Of a DNA stretch of 21,469 bases, positions 565 to 9,462 are shown in pieces. The DNA is from a virus. Every line of letters starts with the position of its first letter. Within the stretch, counting starts at the first letter, position 1. Position numbers and translations under genes: made by a program. The stretch spans positions 1 to 21,469 of the IMG/VR virus record IMGVR_UViG_3300028879_000011; one strand, written 5' to 3'. The notes beneath the pieces are model-generated. The model saw nothing but the letters and a program-made list of their open reading frames with translations, was not told the origin of the DNA and searched no databases.

Positions 565-577
565 CGAACGGTCCGCG

Positions 578-1372
578 TCACTTCATGGCCCTGGCCTCGG
601 CGCGCCTCCTTTGCCCCTCCCGGCGGCACGCCTTGCACTCCCGGTGGCCGGACGGGCTGGTGTAGGTGTTCGCCTCGTCCCAGGGAGTCCCGCAGGCAAC
701 GCAGCACGGTTCCAGCTCCAGGGGCCGGCGGTTATCGACCTGCTCCTTCGCCGTGGCCCAGCGGACGTTTCCGGGCTCGTAGTTCCCGTTGACGTCGATG
801 CGATCGAACGTGTAGATGGGCATCCCGCTCGGGTACTTTCCTTCCGGCTGCGGTCCGATCTCGGCCTCCACGTCGGCGATGAAGACAAGCACGTCATGCC
901 AGCGATCGCAGACGCGGATACCACGGCCGCCGTAGTAGCGGTAGCCGGTCGCGGCGGGGATCTCGCAGCGCCGGAGGATCCTGTACCAGAGCCGCAGCAG
1001 GGGATGCTCTTCCCCGCGTGCGGAGAGGCCATGGCCGTCGATCCGGGTCTGCTGCCGGGCTTTCTGCTCAGGAGTCAGGTTGCCGAGCACCCTGGCCGCC
1101 CGCGCTCTGCCCTCGGGTGTTCTAGCGGACATCGGCCCGGGGGAGAACTCGCACGTCTTCCCGCACGTTTTGACCCGCCCGTTGAACAGGTTGGACAGCG
1201 CGACCGTGACCGTCTGCCCGCAATCACACAGGCACACGGCGGCACGCCAGCCACCCGGCTTAGCGGGCGTGACACCCGTCAGGACGCCGGTTTCGGTCAC
1301 CATCAGCCTGCCGAACCGCTGCCCGACGTCCACGAAAAGCCTCGGCTTCGGCCCGTTCCCCGTTCCGCCCAT
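578..1372 (-). CDS. HNH-family homing endonuclease, first minus-strand copy (HNH-1)
   Basis: A 264-aa protein encoded antisense to the structural operon. The N-terminal region (about 47-74) has a Cys cluster (CLCDCG, then CGKTC) like the zinc ribbon often placed before phage HNH domains. The core (about 146-215) has the recognisable series YYGGRGIRVCDRW, FDRID, NGNYEPGNVRWAT and EQVDNRR, a phage HNH subgroup in which the first catalytic His position is not His. A second Cys-pair module follows (CCVACG, then CKAC, residues 223-249) before a basic tail. Such proteins cut DNA at a cognate site and spread their own gene by homing. Between the Cys cluster and the core is a basic insert (about 82-115) absent from the paralogue at 5717-6631. 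It starts with ATG, has no visible Shine-Dalgarno and may be leaderless. Confidence 0.85.
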   Translation of the reverse strand: MGGTGNGPKPRLFVDVGQRFGRLMVTETGVLTGVTPAKPGGWRAAVCLCDCGQTVTVALSNLFNGRVKTCGKTCEFSPGPMSARTPEGRARAARVLGNLTPEQKARQQTRIDGHGLSARGEEHPLLRLWYRILRRCEIPAATGYRYYGGRGIRVCDRWHDVLVFIADVEAEIGPQPEGKYPSGMPIYTFDRIDVNGNYEPGNVRWATAKEQVDNRRPLELEPCCVACGTPWDEANTYTSPSGHRECKACRREGQRRRAEARAMK

Positions 1373-1378
1373 GACGTA

Positions 1379-1408
1379 ACACTACACGCAATTCGGGCGG
1401 GACACCAA
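1379..1408 (-). promoter_or_regulatory. Candidate promoter for HNH-1, possibly leaderless
   Basis: Read on the minus strand, TTGGTG (1408-1403) and TAGTGT (1384-1379) are separated by 18 bases, with six bases between the -10 and the ATG at 1372. That spacing would put transcription initiation at or next to the start codon, consistent with the missing Shine-Dalgarno. The -35 matches consensus only in TTG, so this is a visual candidate. Confidence 0.25.
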
Positions 1409-1464
1409 CCACCGACGTGTCGAACAGCGACTAGGCATACGAGAACTGAAGGGGGCGTGGCCGC

Positions 1465-4389: not shown

Positions 4390-5552
4390 ACCGCAGGGGG
4401 GTGACCGCATGACGCTGAACCGGTACATAGTGACATCCGATGTCACCATTGCCGCAGGCACCGGCAGTTCCCCGGCGTCAGGACCGGCGACCTCGGCCAG
4501 CGGAACCACCTCCGCGGCACCCGCAGCCGGGACCGTGATCACCTCCGAGGCCGCCGCGACGGGAACGTTCCTGCTGTCCTGGACGTGCACCCTGGCCTCA
4601 GCCGCAGCGGCCGGGGACGCCGGCAACTTCGGCCTGTACTCCGGGACGACGCTGCTGGCCACGTCGGTCAACGCGGGGACCGTCGGGTCCTACCCGCAGC
4701 AGGCGGTCACGACCTACATGGGGGCCGGCGCGGCGGTCACCGTCCAGGTCATCGCGGCGGGGTCCGCCGGGTCGGTGTACAGCGCGGCACTGACAGTGAC
4801 GCCGCTGATGGCCGGGGACACCAAGGGGGCCGTGGCGTGGGACGGGTCCGGTTCGCCGGCGGGGTGGACGCCCGGCGGGTTCCCCGTCAAGTTCCTCCAG
4901 GGCACGCCGCTGATCCTGGACCCGGCCGGGGATCTGTACAGCGCGATCGGGGCCGGGAACCTGCGGGCCTGGGTTGACGGAACGGACACCTGCGGTCACG
5001 GGCATTGGGGGGCACTCGCAAATTGAGCTCCATCCAGCCGCCTACTGGCCGCAACTACGACGCTACGGAGATGGCCCCGTGATCATGCAGCCAGCGGTAC
5101 CCGCGACGAGCCCCGGCGGGACCACCAACACCGTCGTCAACACATCGGGCGGAACCGCGTACGTGAGTGTCGGCGCGAACGGCGCGACGATGGCCAACTA
5201 CTGGGTCAACGGCGTGTCCGTGGCCACCACCGCGACCGCTTACATGATGACCGTCCCCCCGGGCGCCACGTGCGCTTTGCAGTACACCGGCGCGACCCCG
5301 GTCTGGTACTGGTCCGCGATCACCCCGGCGCTGCCCGCCTCCCCCGCCACAGTCGTGAACACCACCGGCCGGAACCTGTCCGCCGCGTTCCTCGGCGCCG
5401 GCGCTGTTACCGCGGTCACGGTCAACGGCCTGACCACCGGGATCACCCAGGCCCCCGGGATGCAGCCCGCCGCCGCGGCCACCGGAGGGGTGCCGCTGCC
5501 CGCCGGCGCCACCATCGTGGTCACCTACACCGGGACCGTGGCGTGGGCGTGG
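3955..5552 (+). repeat. Three dispersed copies of a W-x-W beta module
   Basis: Protein-level repeats lie at about 3955-4125, 5130-5312 and 5349-5552. Each starts with V-x-N-x-(S/T)-G, has a VNG/VNA turn in the middle and ends with a P-(A/P)-G-(A/G)-T strand followed by Y-(S/T) and W-x-W. The unit is 57-68 residues. Divergence between copies implies old duplication. The intervening gene at 4409-5026 lacks the W-x-W ending. Confidence 0.7.
4409..5026 (+). CDS. Beta-rich accessory virion protein, function unknown
   Basis: A 205-aa protein starting with ATG after a purine-rich Shine-Dalgarno (AGGGGGGTGA). Residues about 20-45 are a Ser/Ala/Thr/Pro-rich linker. Residues about 43-132 look like one Ig-like or jelly-roll domain (TFLLSWTCTLASA, NFGLYSGTTLLATS, VTVQVIAAGSAGSVYSAALT). 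The C-terminal part has VKFLQGTPLILDPAGDLY then IGAGNLRAWVDG, similar to the end of the 64-aa protein at 370-564. It is almost uncharged, as expected for an exterior beta protein. A capsid surface or head-fibre role fits its place beside the capsid gene, but I do not recognise a named family. Confidence 0.7.
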   Translation: MTLNRYIVTSDVTIAAGTGSSPASGPATSASGTTSAAPAAGTVITSEAAATGTFLLSWTCTLASAAAAGDAGNFGLYSGTTLLATSVNAGTVGSYPQQAVTTYMGAGAAVTVQVIAAGSAGSVYSAALTVTPLMAGDTKGAVAWDGSGSPAGWTPGGFPVKFLQGTPLILDPAGDLYSAIGAGNLRAWVDGTDTCGHGHWGALAN

Positions 5553-5720
5553 CTCGACAGCCTGGACATGTCCGGGACCAGCTCCGACGGCACCGCCTAC
5601 GCGCAGTCCAACATCGTCCCCGCGTCCGGCGCAGGCGGGTACTCGTCGCTGAACACCCTGCCGTACGCGCCCCATGCTGCAAGTGGCTTCAGCGGATGGG
5701 GGGCCGGAATATCAAACTAA
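5079..5720 (+). CDS. Protein with two W-x-W beta modules (probable virion surface protein)
   Basis: I place the start at the GTG at 5079 because GGAG (5067-5070) lies eight bases upstream. An ATG at 5085 is also possible; the in-frame TTG at 4974 would overlap the previous gene by about 50 bases. The 213-aa product carries two copies of the beta module also found at 3775-4389: residues about 18-78 (VVNTSGGTAYVSV, TVPPGATCALQYTG, WYW) and about 91-158 (VVNTTGRNLSAAF, VTVNGLTTGI, LPAGATIVVTYTG, WAW). A Gly/Ser-rich tail follows. It is probably a capsid-surface or accessory tail protein. Its TAA stop overlaps by a few bases with the stop of the convergent HNH-2 gene, so the last residues may have been altered by that insertion. 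Confidence 0.75.
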   Translation: MIMQPAVPATSPGGTTNTVVNTSGGTAYVSVGANGATMANYWVNGVSVATTATAYMMTVPPGATCALQYTGATPVWYWSAITPALPASPATVVNTTGRNLSAAFLGAGAVTAVTVNGLTTGITQAPGMQPAAAATGGVPLPAGATIVVTYTGTVAWAWLDSLDMSGTSSDGTAYAQSNIVPASGAGGYSSLNTLPYAPHAASGFSGWGAGISN

Positions 5721-6631
5721 GCCGCCCGGTCCGGCAACTCCAGACGGTCGCCATCCCACCCGACGGTGCCGTCGTCCGCCGTGACCCTTTCTCTGACAAT
5801 CAGGTCCCCGGAGGGAAGCGTCACCGTCGGCACATCGGATGGCGGCGTTATCAGCGCCAGTACGGTCGTCTGCAAGCTGAGCGCCAGGCCCAGCAGTTCA
5901 TCGGCGTAGATAACTCGCCTGGCCGTCTCCGCATCGCTGACGGTTTGCCGATGCCAGGTCTTGAATCCCAGTGCCTGCATCCGGGCGGCGAGGGATGGCC
6001 CTCCCAGGTGCAGTTTCGCTCTCTGCCCGGCAACGTTCCAGGCCAGGACCTCCTTGTAGGACTGCGGCGCCCTCGCTTGAGCACCCCTTACCGGGTGATC
6101 TTGCCGGTTGTGCCGCTGTTGCAGCGCCGTCGCCCATCGGACGTTGCCCGGCTCGTAATTGCCGTCGTTGTCGATGCGGTCAAGCGTGTAGAGCGGCATG
6201 CCGCTCGGATACCTGCCTTCCGGCTTCACGCCGATGCTCGACTCGATATCCGCGATGAACGCAGCCAGGTCGCGCCAGCGTTCGCAGACCTTGATGCCGC
6301 GCCCCCCGTACCGGGGAAATTGCGGGGCGGACTCCTTGTAGCAGCGGTCCATCATGCCGCCCCACGTGGCGCGGAGCGGATGGCCCGAAAGCCCGTGCCT
6401 GACGCCGTGCTCCCGCTGCCAGCAGCCGCAGGACCCGCTGGCGCCGCTGTTCAGGTTGGACAGCGCAACCGTGACTACATTCCCGCAGTCGCACTGACAG
6501 ACGGCGGCACGCCATCCCGCAGGCTTGGACGGACTGACACCAAGCCGGGCATCGCTGTTCAGTACGACCAGCCGGTTGAATCGCTGTCCTACCTGGACGA
6601 ATATCCGCTGCTTAGCTCCCTTGCCGATCAC
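5717..6631 (-). CDS. HNH-family homing endonuclease with C-terminal XRE-like extension (HNH-2)
   Basis: A 304-aa protein on the minus strand, starting with a GTG that overlaps the stop of the upstream ribbon-helix-helix gene by four bases (GTGA). Domains in order: a Cys cluster (CQCDCG, then SCGC, 45-70); an HNH-type core (107-177) with RYGGRGIKVCERW, LDRID, NGNYEPGNVRWAT and QQRHNRQ; then a 120-residue extension absent from HNH-1. In the extension, WNVAGQRAKL, SLAARMQALG, WHRQTVSDAET, ADELLGLALSLQTTVLALI and VTLPSG (about 192-275) follow the layout of actinobacterial XRE/Cro-type helix-turn-helix regulators. It closely parallels HNH-1 across residues 1-180. A homing nuclease with an extra DNA-binding domain is the likeliest reading; the HTH assignment is from remembered family patterns. 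Confidence 0.82.
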   Translation of the reverse strand: MIGKGAKQRIFVQVGQRFNRLVVLNSDARLGVSPSKPAGWRAAVCQCDCGNVVTVALSNLNSGASGSCGCWQREHGVRHGLSGHPLRATWGGMMDRCYKESAPQFPRYGGRGIKVCERWRDLAAFIADIESSIGVKPEGRYPSGMPLYTLDRIDNDGNYEPGNVRWATALQQRHNRQDHPVRGAQARAPQSYKEVLAWNVAGQRAKLHLGGPSLAARMQALGFKTWHRQTVSDAETARRVIYADELLGLALSLQTTVLALITPPSDVPTVTLPSGDLIVRERVTADDGTVGWDGDRLELPDRAA

Positions 6632-6786
6632 TTCTGGCCGTCGCCCTCGGGCAGCGCCGGGAGTGTCAACGCCAGCCGGTCGCGCACGACTGCGCTGACC
6701 GACCGCTCCTCGGTGTATGCGGCCAGCCGCAACCGCTCGTACAGGTCATCGGGCAGGTCCACACTGATTCGCTTCATGGAATCCAT
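6628..6786 (-). CDS. Ribbon-helix-helix (CopG/Arc-type) DNA-binding protein
   Basis: A 52-aa protein starting at the ATG at 6786 (a second in-frame ATG is at 6777). The sequence has the compact RHH layout: a beta strand (KRISVDLP), helix 1 (DDLYERLRLAAYTEE), the turn (RSVSA) and helix 2 (AVVRDRLALTLPAL). Such proteins dimerise, place the strand pair in the DNA major groove and commonly autoregulate small operons or act as antitoxins. The only downstream partner is the HNH-2 gene, joined by a GTGA overlap, so the two are almost certainly co-translated. The frame stays open further upstream, but that part is antisense to other genes and unlike RHH proteins. No clear Shine-Dalgarno precedes the ATG. 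I infer it controls the nuclease gene. Confidence 0.75.
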   Translation of the reverse strand: MDSMKRISVDLPDDLYERLRLAAYTEERSVSAVVRDRLALTLPALPEGDGQK

Positions 6787-6790
6787 GATA

Positions 6791-6802
6791 CCGGAAATCC
6801 GG
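6791..6802. promoter_or_regulatory. Inverted repeat CCGGA-AA-TCCGG, candidate operator
   Basis: A perfect 5-bp inverted repeat with a two-base spacer, five bases upstream of the RHH start, in the 30-bp gap before the divergent plus-strand gene. Short palindromes like this are typical RHH operators, so autoregulation is plausible. Short GC-rich palindromes are also common by chance. Confidence 0.3.
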
Positions 6803-6816
6803 GAGATGGCGGCCTT

Positions 6817-7041
6817 ATGTCCCAATATCCTCAGCGGGTACTTACTGACACTTCCGTAACATGGGATTCCCATGCGAACGGCGCGGAGCGGGCAACCTTC
6901 ACCCGTCACGGAACGGTCGTCGACGTGGTGCCCGGATCGCTGCTGGAAGCCGCCTACGGGCCGTCCGTCCTGTCCGGCGTGATCCCTCTCAGCCAGCGCG
7001 GCAACGAAGCCTGCCTGAGCCAAGCGTGCGTAAGTAACTAG
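6817..7041 (+). CDS. Small phage protein, function unknown
   Basis: A 74-aa protein starting with ATG behind a plausible Shine-Dalgarno (GGGAGATGG). It is divergent from the RHH-HNH-2 cassette. The sequence looks like a small mixed alpha/beta fold with a VVDVVPGSLLEAAYG segment near the middle and two Cys near the C-terminus. It lies ten bases before the small membrane protein gene and reads with the structural operon. I do not recognise the family. It could belong to the phage backbone or to the inserted cassette; the good start signal and tight downstream spacing favour the backbone. Confidence 0.6.
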   Translation: MSQYPQRVLTDTSVTWDSHANGAERATFTRHGTVVDVVPGSLLEAAYGPSVLSGVIPLSQRGNEACLSQACVSN

Positions 7042-7233: not shown

Positions 7234-7511
7234 CCCGGTACAGAAAGAAGCCCGTCGTTATCGACGCTGAGCGCGTCGACCGGGACAAGCTGCACCGGCT
7301 CAGCCCGGAGTTCCGTGCCGCCGTCTGCAACGAGGTGTGCGACCAGGGTGAGCGGAAGTACGAGAACGGCCGATCGATGCCGCACGTCCACACGCTCGAA
7401 GGCGCCATGCACATCAGCGACGGGGACTGGCTGGTCAAAGGCGTCCAGGGCGAGTTCTACCCGGTGAAAAGTGACATCTTCGCGGCCACCTACGAGCCGG
7501 TGATCGCGTGA
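7230..7511 (+). CDS. Conserved phage protein of the YRKKPVVIxA type
   Basis: A 93-aa protein. I choose the GTG at 7230 because it overlaps the previous stop (GTGA) and the protein family starts exactly here (TRYRKKPVVIDAERV). The C-terminal half has LEGAMHISDGDWLVKGVQGEFYPVKSDIFAATYEPV written as two motifs, GDWLVKGVQGEFYPVK and DIFAATYEPV, which are the hallmark of a small family found in many phages of Gram-positive and Gram-negative hosts. No biochemical role is known to me. It overlaps the adaptor gene by four bases. Its place among head-tail genes is less common, as members usually sit in accessory regions. Confidence 0.85.
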   Translation: MTRYRKKPVVIDAERVDRDKLHRLSPEFRAAVCNEVCDQGERKYENGRSMPHVHTLEGAMHISDGDWLVKGVQGEFYPVKSDIFAATYEPVIA

Positions 7512-8065
7512 CGACCCCTGTTGCTAGCGGCGTCCTGTACGCGTCCGTCGCTGACCTGCGGAACGTCATGAGCGGGACAGACTCCGGGACGGGCACGGCG
7601 GCGCAGCTCACCGACGCGCAGTTGGAGCTGGCGCTTTATGCGGCGAGCAATCGCGTGTCGGTGTACGCGGGCAACCTTTACGACAGTTCCGTGCCGGAGG
7701 CCGTGCCCCCGCCTGTCCTGCATGATCTAACGCTCGATCTGGCGTGCTTCTGGGCGTACAAGACATATCTCAAGAGCAAGGAAATCACGGCGACCCACCC
7801 CGTGTACATCGCCTATCGCGACGCAATGGGGATCCTGGCCGACGTGAGAAAGGGCGTCGTCCTCCTCGATCCGGCGGCGGCTCCGGGAATCGGCATGGAA
7901 ACGGGGACGGTCATCAACCGCCTCCCGCCGATCTTCACGGGCCGGGACAGCAACACCAGAGTGTCGCCTGTGACTGGTGTTCTCGAAGCCGATGTCCCCC
8001 TCGGCCAGTGGTCCCCGCGCGGCATGGGCTGGGGCGACGGGGCGGGGACGGTGTACGAGGGATGA
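7508..8065 (+). CDS. Head-tail adaptor (Mu gp36-like / DUF1320-type)
   Basis: A 185-aa protein starting with GTG overlapping the previous stop. The first 120 residues follow the gp36-like/connector layout: a YASVADLRNVM start, a helix with QLTDAQLELALYAASNRVSVY, an LTLDLACFWAYKTYL helix and YRDAMGILADVRKGVVLLDP. These bundles form the ring that docks under the portal and leads to the tail. The C-terminal 60 residues are Gly/Pro-rich (RLPPIFTGRDSNTRVSP, WSPRGMGWGDG) as in related phage adaptors. The ATGA overlap with the next gene and its place before neck and terminator genes support the call. The portal must lie upstream of the window. Confidence 0.8.
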   Translation: MTTPVASGVLYASVADLRNVMSGTDSGTGTAAQLTDAQLELALYAASNRVSVYAGNLYDSSVPEAVPPPVLHDLTLDLACFWAYKTYLKSKEITATHPVYIAYRDAMGILADVRKGVVLLDPAAAPGIGMETGTVINRLPPIFTGRDSNTRVSPVTGVLEADVPLGQWSPRGMGWGDGAGTVYEG

Positions 8066-9024: not shown

Positions 9025-9462
9025 ATGCCATTCGAGCCACGAGAGAAGCACTGGGCATGGAAAGGCGACGACGCCGGGTACGGCGGTCTCCATCTCAGGG
9101 TCAGAAGAGAACGCGGTCCAGCGTCAGATTACAAATGCGAATGCGGCAACCAATCGCAGGAATGGTCGCGTATCGCCGGGCGGGACGGCTGTGACGTGCA
9201 GGATTACGTTGCTAAGTGTCTTTTCTGCCACAGAGCGTACGACAAGTCCAACGGCGGGACGGGCTCATGGCCGAGAGGCGAGGGCTGCTGGAACAGTGTA
9301 CTTACCGCTGACGACGTGGAAGACATCCGGGTTCGCCACGGATTTTTCGGCGAGGGAAGCACGGCAATCGCCCGTGAGTACGGCGTATCAAAAGGAGCGG
9401 TGGACGGCGTGATCCACTTCCGCAATTGGCGTCATTTGAACGCCTGTGAGATAGGAGTTTAG
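9025..9462 (+). CDS. HNH endonuclease with C-terminal HTH (HNH-3)
   Basis: A 145-aa protein in the plus direction, starting with ATG 12 bases after GGAG. The N-terminal half carries the small actinophage HNH pattern: HWAWKGDDAGYGGLH (9-23), YKCECG (37-41), a Trp about six residues on, DYVAKCLFCHRAYDK (60-74). The two Cys pairs should bind zinc. Residues about 93-137 form a helix-turn-helix (LTADDVEDIRVRHG, AIAREYGVSKGAVDGVI, then FRNW), as in resolvase-like specificity domains attached to phage HNH proteins. It is visibly less GC-rich than its neighbours, with more AT-ending codons, suggesting recent transfer. It splits the usual terminator to tail-gene order and is not related in sequence to the two minus-strand copies. 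A homing role is inferred. Confidence 0.82.
   Translation: MPFEPREKHWAWKGDDAGYGGLHLRVRRERGPASDYKCECGNQSQEWSRIAGRDGCDVQDYVAKCLFCHRAYDKSNGGTGSWPRGEGCWNSVLTADDVEDIRVRHGFFGEGSTAIAREYGVSKGAVDGVIHFRNWRHLNACEIGV
9451..9458 (+). repeat. Right copy of ATAGGAGT direct repeat flanking HNH-3
   Basis: Identical to 9006-9013. This copy provides the Shine-Dalgarno (GGAG, six bases before the TTG at 9464) for the next structural gene and encodes the last Ile-Gly-Val of HNH-3. Confidence 0.55.

Follow-up and report, generated by a model that had tools for sequence, protein, structure and literature searches.

A phage homing-type nuclease cassette with a candidate co-mobile ribbon-helix-helix autorepressor

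Introduction

Can a homing-type nuclease of a phage have a dedicated regulator that travels with it? To our knowledge, nucleases of this type normally travel without one. The question is raised by a viral record of 21,469 bases, which we have analyzed whole and refer to as the window. In it, a small ribbon-helix-helix (RHH) gene overlaps the start of a gene for an HNH-type nuclease. The ways in which selfish phage nucleases limit the damage that they cause are known mainly from T4, and a small co-mobile repressor, if this is what the RHH protein is, would be a separate and portable solution to the harm done by a nuclease.

A sequence-only reading of this DNA had proposed a self-regulated mobile nuclease module or, alternatively, a toxin-antitoxin-like pair in which the nuclease is restrained until the cassette enters a new genome. 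The best explanation that we can give, with a probability of roughly 60%, is a phage homing-type cassette in which the RHH protein would be a co-mobile autorepressor. The mobile part of the first proposal is supported by the relocation of the pair and by a trio of donor-like, recombinant, and empty alleles. The self-regulated part is what we infer from the place of the RHH gene in the cassette and from a conserved block in front of it.

Results

The gene pair and its surroundings

The window has a head-tail gene order, with the major head protein at 1981-2892, the connector at 7508-8065, and tail proteins. The whole cassette (5717..6802, minus strand) lies between two rightward genes, one ending ...GISN-stop at 5720 and the other starting at 6817. 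Both the RHH gene and the nuclease gene are on the minus strand, and the pair is antisense to the phage structural genes. The "antisense HNH gene" of the sequence-only reading is thus antisense to the phage genes, but not to the RHH gene.

The RHH domain is identified by Pfam profile (RHH_5, E=4.7e-10, 39.5 bits with a cut-off of 26), and the same protein also matches RHH_1 (5e-5, 23.5 bits, cut-off 20.5). The gene had been described as coding for 52 amino acids, and an open reading frame of that length does exist from the first ATG (6628-6786, minus strand). We favor the second ATG (6775-6777) as the true start, because the first one reads ATT in relatives and overlaps a -10 box. The probable extent of the gene is then 6628..6777 (minus strand), coding for 49 amino acids from MKR. 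Its TGA stop overlaps the GTG start of the nuclease gene in a GTGA (6628..6631, minus strand), as had been reported.

The nuclease gene (5717..6631, minus strand) codes for 304 amino acids. Its product (P0001) matches PHROG 374, "HNH endonuclease", with E=6.6e-46, and four more HNH/restriction families; the 304-aa protein itself has no Pfam or NCBIfam match. An AlphaFold2 model built from 73 relatives is confident over residues 10-177 (pLDDT >90 over most of 10-170), with a low-confidence C-terminal part. The modeled fold has an N-terminal three-stranded beta domain with conserved cysteines, followed by an HNH-like beta-beta-alpha unit at 148-176. Its viral fold neighbors (BFVD) are phage HNH/AP2 homing-type proteins, and neither sequence nor fold searches of the PDB returned anything usable. 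AP2, HTH, CapR, or NUMOD1 modules are present in some of the relatives.

The canonical HNH residues are not all in place. The position of the first catalytic His is Arg152 in all 73 aligned members, together with N163 (73/73) and N175 (71/73). Because Arg152 is invariant, "HNH" is only a superfamily label here, and the nuclease activity is a predicted one. Family relationship and mobility are our grounds for filing the protein as homing-type rather than as a canonical HNH enzyme. Two other residues of the alignment are also conserved, H79 (70/73) and R96 (73/73).

Two diverged copies of the pair

A scan of viral sequences with the RHH protein reports two lineages only. One is formed by L082 and L083, near-identical contigs of the same phage, and the other by L084-L087. 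In the second lineage, the RHH protein is 77% identical and its gene sits directly upstream of a 246-aa nuclease that is ~60% identical (61% over aligned residues), and the GTGA overlap is kept. Purifying selection acts on both genes (dN/dS 0.35 and 0.37).

The insertion sites differ. The cassette is downstream of gene 4974-5720 in the window, and in the relatives it is on the other side, upstream of the corresponding homologue. The junction that is occupied in the window is empty in the relatives L178-L193. Further RHH-HNH pairs were found neither in phage records, nor when viral sequences were scanned again with an alignment of RHH proteins, nor among GTDB genome matches. A tree of the nucleases is compatible with the two RHH-bearing ones being sisters and with their being separate.

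HNH homologues lacking an RHH neighbor, and RHH homologues with unrelated neighbors, had been named as observations that would count against a dedicated pair. The former are many, but the close RHH homologues in viral contigs (the two lineages) all have the nuclease as their neighbor. On chromosomes, the nearest RHH genes are ~40% identical and adjoin PIN toxins or other unrelated genes. A different RHH/HNH neighborhood is seen in a Chloroflexi MAG (L090, 4001-5000), in which a protein with an N-terminal RHH is followed by a classical HNH open reading frame.

A transfer footprint

The comparison of L084 and L086, in window orientation, shows a cassette that is 100% identical and a right flank that is 100% identical over at least 410 bp, next to left flanks that are only ~80% identical. 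Junction 4988..5041 holds the RHH-HNH cassette in L085/L086 and is empty in the window, and just to its left the DNA of L085/L086 is 99.6-99.8% identical to the window, that of L086 99.8%. For the RHH cassette we then have occupied and empty alleles in near-identical genomes (L086 and the window, 99.8% on one side). In a three-way alignment, L086 follows the window as far as ...GGTTGACGGAAC and matches L084 from GACGGAACCGACAACG onward, so that the switch falls inside the 8-nt stretch GACGGAAC, ~40-47 bp to the left of the cassette. As each of the two arrangements is present in two samples, the footprint is not an assembly chimera.

That the RHH and nuclease genes move as one homing-endonuclease-like cassette is supported by these comparisons, as the pair has relocated to another junction and is found in the trio of donor, recombinant, and empty alleles. 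The footprint of this recent exchange in L086 would match homing with co-conversion; ordinary homologous recombination, or a transfer in the reverse direction, would fit as well.

Sister cassettes without the RHH gene

The same phage carries a second cassette (570..1451, minus strand) with a paralogous nuclease (578-1372) and no RHH gene. Its junction is empty in L224, where the right flank is 99.4% identical. In the comparison of this cassette (570-1451) across L224, L222, and L276, the last has a 70% identical copy, and GACTAG is present at both ends of the cassette. Another RHH-free nuclease is found in L179 (4220-4979), after a 74-aa gene, and L178 lacks it while being 99.8% identical on both sides. 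This insert is flanked by an 8-bp direct repeat, AACTGATG, located at an overlapping stop/start (L178 4220-4227), and the repeat provides the upstream gene with its stop and the downstream gene with its start. The expected start codon of the L179 nuclease reads ATA.

The RHH gene was not found elsewhere in 538 kb of loci from the same phage group, and it is next to none of the other places of the nuclease (185 counted, duplicates included).

Promoter and operator candidates

Every cassette has a TANNNT box 6 or 7 nt before its first codon: TAGTGT for the 578-1372 gene, TATGCT in L276, TAGAGT in L179, and TATCAT in both RHH cassettes. These amount to three independent cases: L276 and the 578-1372 gene are orthologous, and the RHH cassettes are related to each other. 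The window has few TANNNT boxes (0.001 per position), and the distance of 6-7 nt between box and first codon makes it probable that the cassette messages are leaderless. A scan with the sigma-70 consensus reports no -35/-10 pair and no recognizable -35, which leaves the -10 box as the basis for proposing a promoter.

In the window, the TATCAT box (6785..6790, minus strand) is 7 nt before the ATG of MKR; it is conserved in L086 and would mark a probable leaderless promoter. With its start at the second ATG, the RHH gene fills the promoter-proximal slot that is held by the nuclease in the other cassettes, and from this position we take the RHH protein to be, probably, an autorepressor of 49 amino acids. 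Between the two lineages, the 21 nt that precede the start at MKR have 2 differences, compared with ~31% (pS 0.31) at the synonymous sites of the RHH gene. It is from this slot, together with the conserved promoter/operator-like block, that we infer a regulatory role for the RHH protein.

The block includes a 6-1-6 palindrome, CATGGAATCCATG (6775..6787), which the sequence-only reading had missed. It is conserved at 12 of 13 positions in L084-L087 and spans the last part of the -10 box, the start of the transcript, and the ATG, a place for a repressor to act, which makes it our candidate for the RHH operator. The palindrome that had been noted earlier, five bases upstream of the gene, does exist (the 5-2-5 CCGGAAATCCGG, CCGGA-AA-TCCGG, at 6791..6802), four bases from the first ATG by our count. 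We considered it as the main operator candidate and rejected it: it is at the margin of the conserved block, relatives read GCGTAATTTCTGG, and 5-2-5 palindromes are common in the window (34, or 1.6 per kb). It is probably due to chance.

Discussion

What else could the RHH protein be doing?

One other possibility is that the RHH protein is a captured phage regulator, or a passenger, that acts on other phage or host promoters and has no special tie to the nuclease. Its best PHROG matches are indeed Arc-like repressors, and two lineages are all that we have. Yet a regulator with wider duties in the phage is hard to reconcile with its absence from all other surveyed members of the phage group, or with the promoter, the overlap, and the gene order having all been kept through a relocation. 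We consider this explanation unlikely.

The RHH protein could also be a partner in specificity, binding the target DNA and bringing the nuclease to the gene junction. The overlapping genes and their strict co-movement would agree with such a role, as would the nuclease of the relatives, which stops right after the catalytic domain and is without a C-terminal DNA-binding part. But RHH-free paralogues sit in the same type of junction, so that the RHH protein is dispensable for targeting, and the conserved DNA associated with it is in the cassette's own promoter. We find a recruitment role improbable, somewhat more so than a captured regulator.

RHH proteins are common antitoxins, the gene order and overlap resemble those of type II pairs, and PIN toxins lie beside some of the closest RHH relatives on chromosomes; but a toxin-antitoxin-like pair, in which the RHH protein would neutralize the nuclease through direct contact and host or phage would be harmed when the cassette is lost, is very improbable given a nuclease family that is large (~980 phage records), phage-mobile, and usually without RHH (578-1372 in this same phage included), an RHH protein of only 49 amino acids with no long toxin-binding tail, and no PADLOC match. 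The nuclease is neither of a toxin family nor in constant antitoxin company, as a type II partner would be, and this second proposal of the sequence-only reading is not supported.

How the cassette might work

We return to the autorepressor as the favored explanation. The cassette would have a leaderless promoter of its own, with transcription running antisense to the structural genes. An RHH dimer would bind the palindromic -10/start region CATNGATTCCATG and repress that promoter, and reinitiation of translation at the GTGA would give the nuclease at a low level. The nuclease would cut cassette-free AGCAAC-stop junctions in a co-infecting phage, and repair of the cut junction would copy the cassette. 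With repression, there would be less off-target cutting and less antisense transcription of the structural operon.

The known kind to which the cassette belongs is the free-standing phage homing nuclease; what is new is a candidate regulator of its own, carried along. With T4 mob/seg and the AP2-associated IPA-HNH genes it shares intergenic insertion beside structural genes and occupied/empty alleles (PMC2988022, PMC10448857). Its antisense orientation is that of segD, and an exchange boundary at the nuclease gene is also a feature of free-standing phage homing endonucleases, whose genes mark the boundaries of exchange between phages (PMC10448857). Unlike those elements, T4 mob/seg and IPA-HNH alike, this cassette has a dedicated small RHH gene in the operon.

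For T4, the reviewed forms of control are late promoters and RNA hairpins and, in the case of intron enzymes, repression by the nuclease itself (PMC2988022). The last is the case of I-TevI, which represses its own promoter (PMC2988022). A repressor over the promoter of a homing nuclease is thus demonstrated there and proposed here, with the difference that I-TevI is itself the repressor, and we propose a separate RHH protein.

The C proteins of restriction-modification systems are another relative by analogy. In PvuII (PMC2997769), as here, a small DNA-binding regulator is encoded directly upstream of the nuclease gene, overlaps it, and shares one transcript with it. C proteins, however, act as activators, with positive feedback that is delayed, and have a methylase as partner; the present case is a mobile phage cassette with an RHH protein and no methylase. 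As the overlap between the PvuII C and R genes proved dispensable (PMC2997769), the GTGA overlap is no proof of coupling either.

The Pacc40 gp60 insert, which is a match of the present nuclease family, has been regarded as a putative HNH element of the homing type (PMC11855218). Like our cassette, the ShiLan and Pacc40 gp60 HNH insertions have a homing-type distribution, and leaderless translation has also been proposed for them (PMC11855218); they differ by lying within a methylase gene, in a different frame, and by having no RHH gene. In the open-access literature that we searched, there is no described case of a homing or HNH endonuclease with a ribbon-helix-helix or CopG protein. Precedents in that literature exist for the idea, not for the arrangement of an RHH gene with a nuclease.

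Would this be a more general solution? The proposition that free-standing homing nucleases can gain a dedicated co-mobile repressor, placed between promoter and nuclease, to form a "regulated homing cassette" that is C-protein-like but uses an RHH repressor, is one that we regard as evenly balanced. Sister cassettes with and without RHH, together with the donor-like, recombinant, and empty alleles, make the effect of the RHH protein on expression, toxicity, and spread directly testable.

Target junctions

All four occupied junctions follow gene ends of the AGCAAC-stop type, a sequence that several gene junctions in the phage group have in common. If 5 of the ~20 junctions in the window are AGCAAC-type, the chance of finding four out of four is ~0.001, a figure that depends on our own count of junctions and on sites that are clustered. 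A preference of the cassettes for AGCAAC-stop junctions is for now a lead, not a result.

Several junctions in the window and in L178-L193 (around 5720, 5026, and 7041) also have GAGCAACTGATG, which may be a nuclease target or a recombination linker. Allowing at most one mismatch, it is found in 20 places in 16 loci, partly by orthology, compared with 0.2-0.5 in shuffled sequences. Elsewhere in the window (9025-9462, plus strand), after a tail-terminator-like gene, a cysteine-containing open reading frame of 145 amino acids has weak matches to the HNH family phrog_20467 and to phrog_4160, and is possibly a third nuclease-type insertion.
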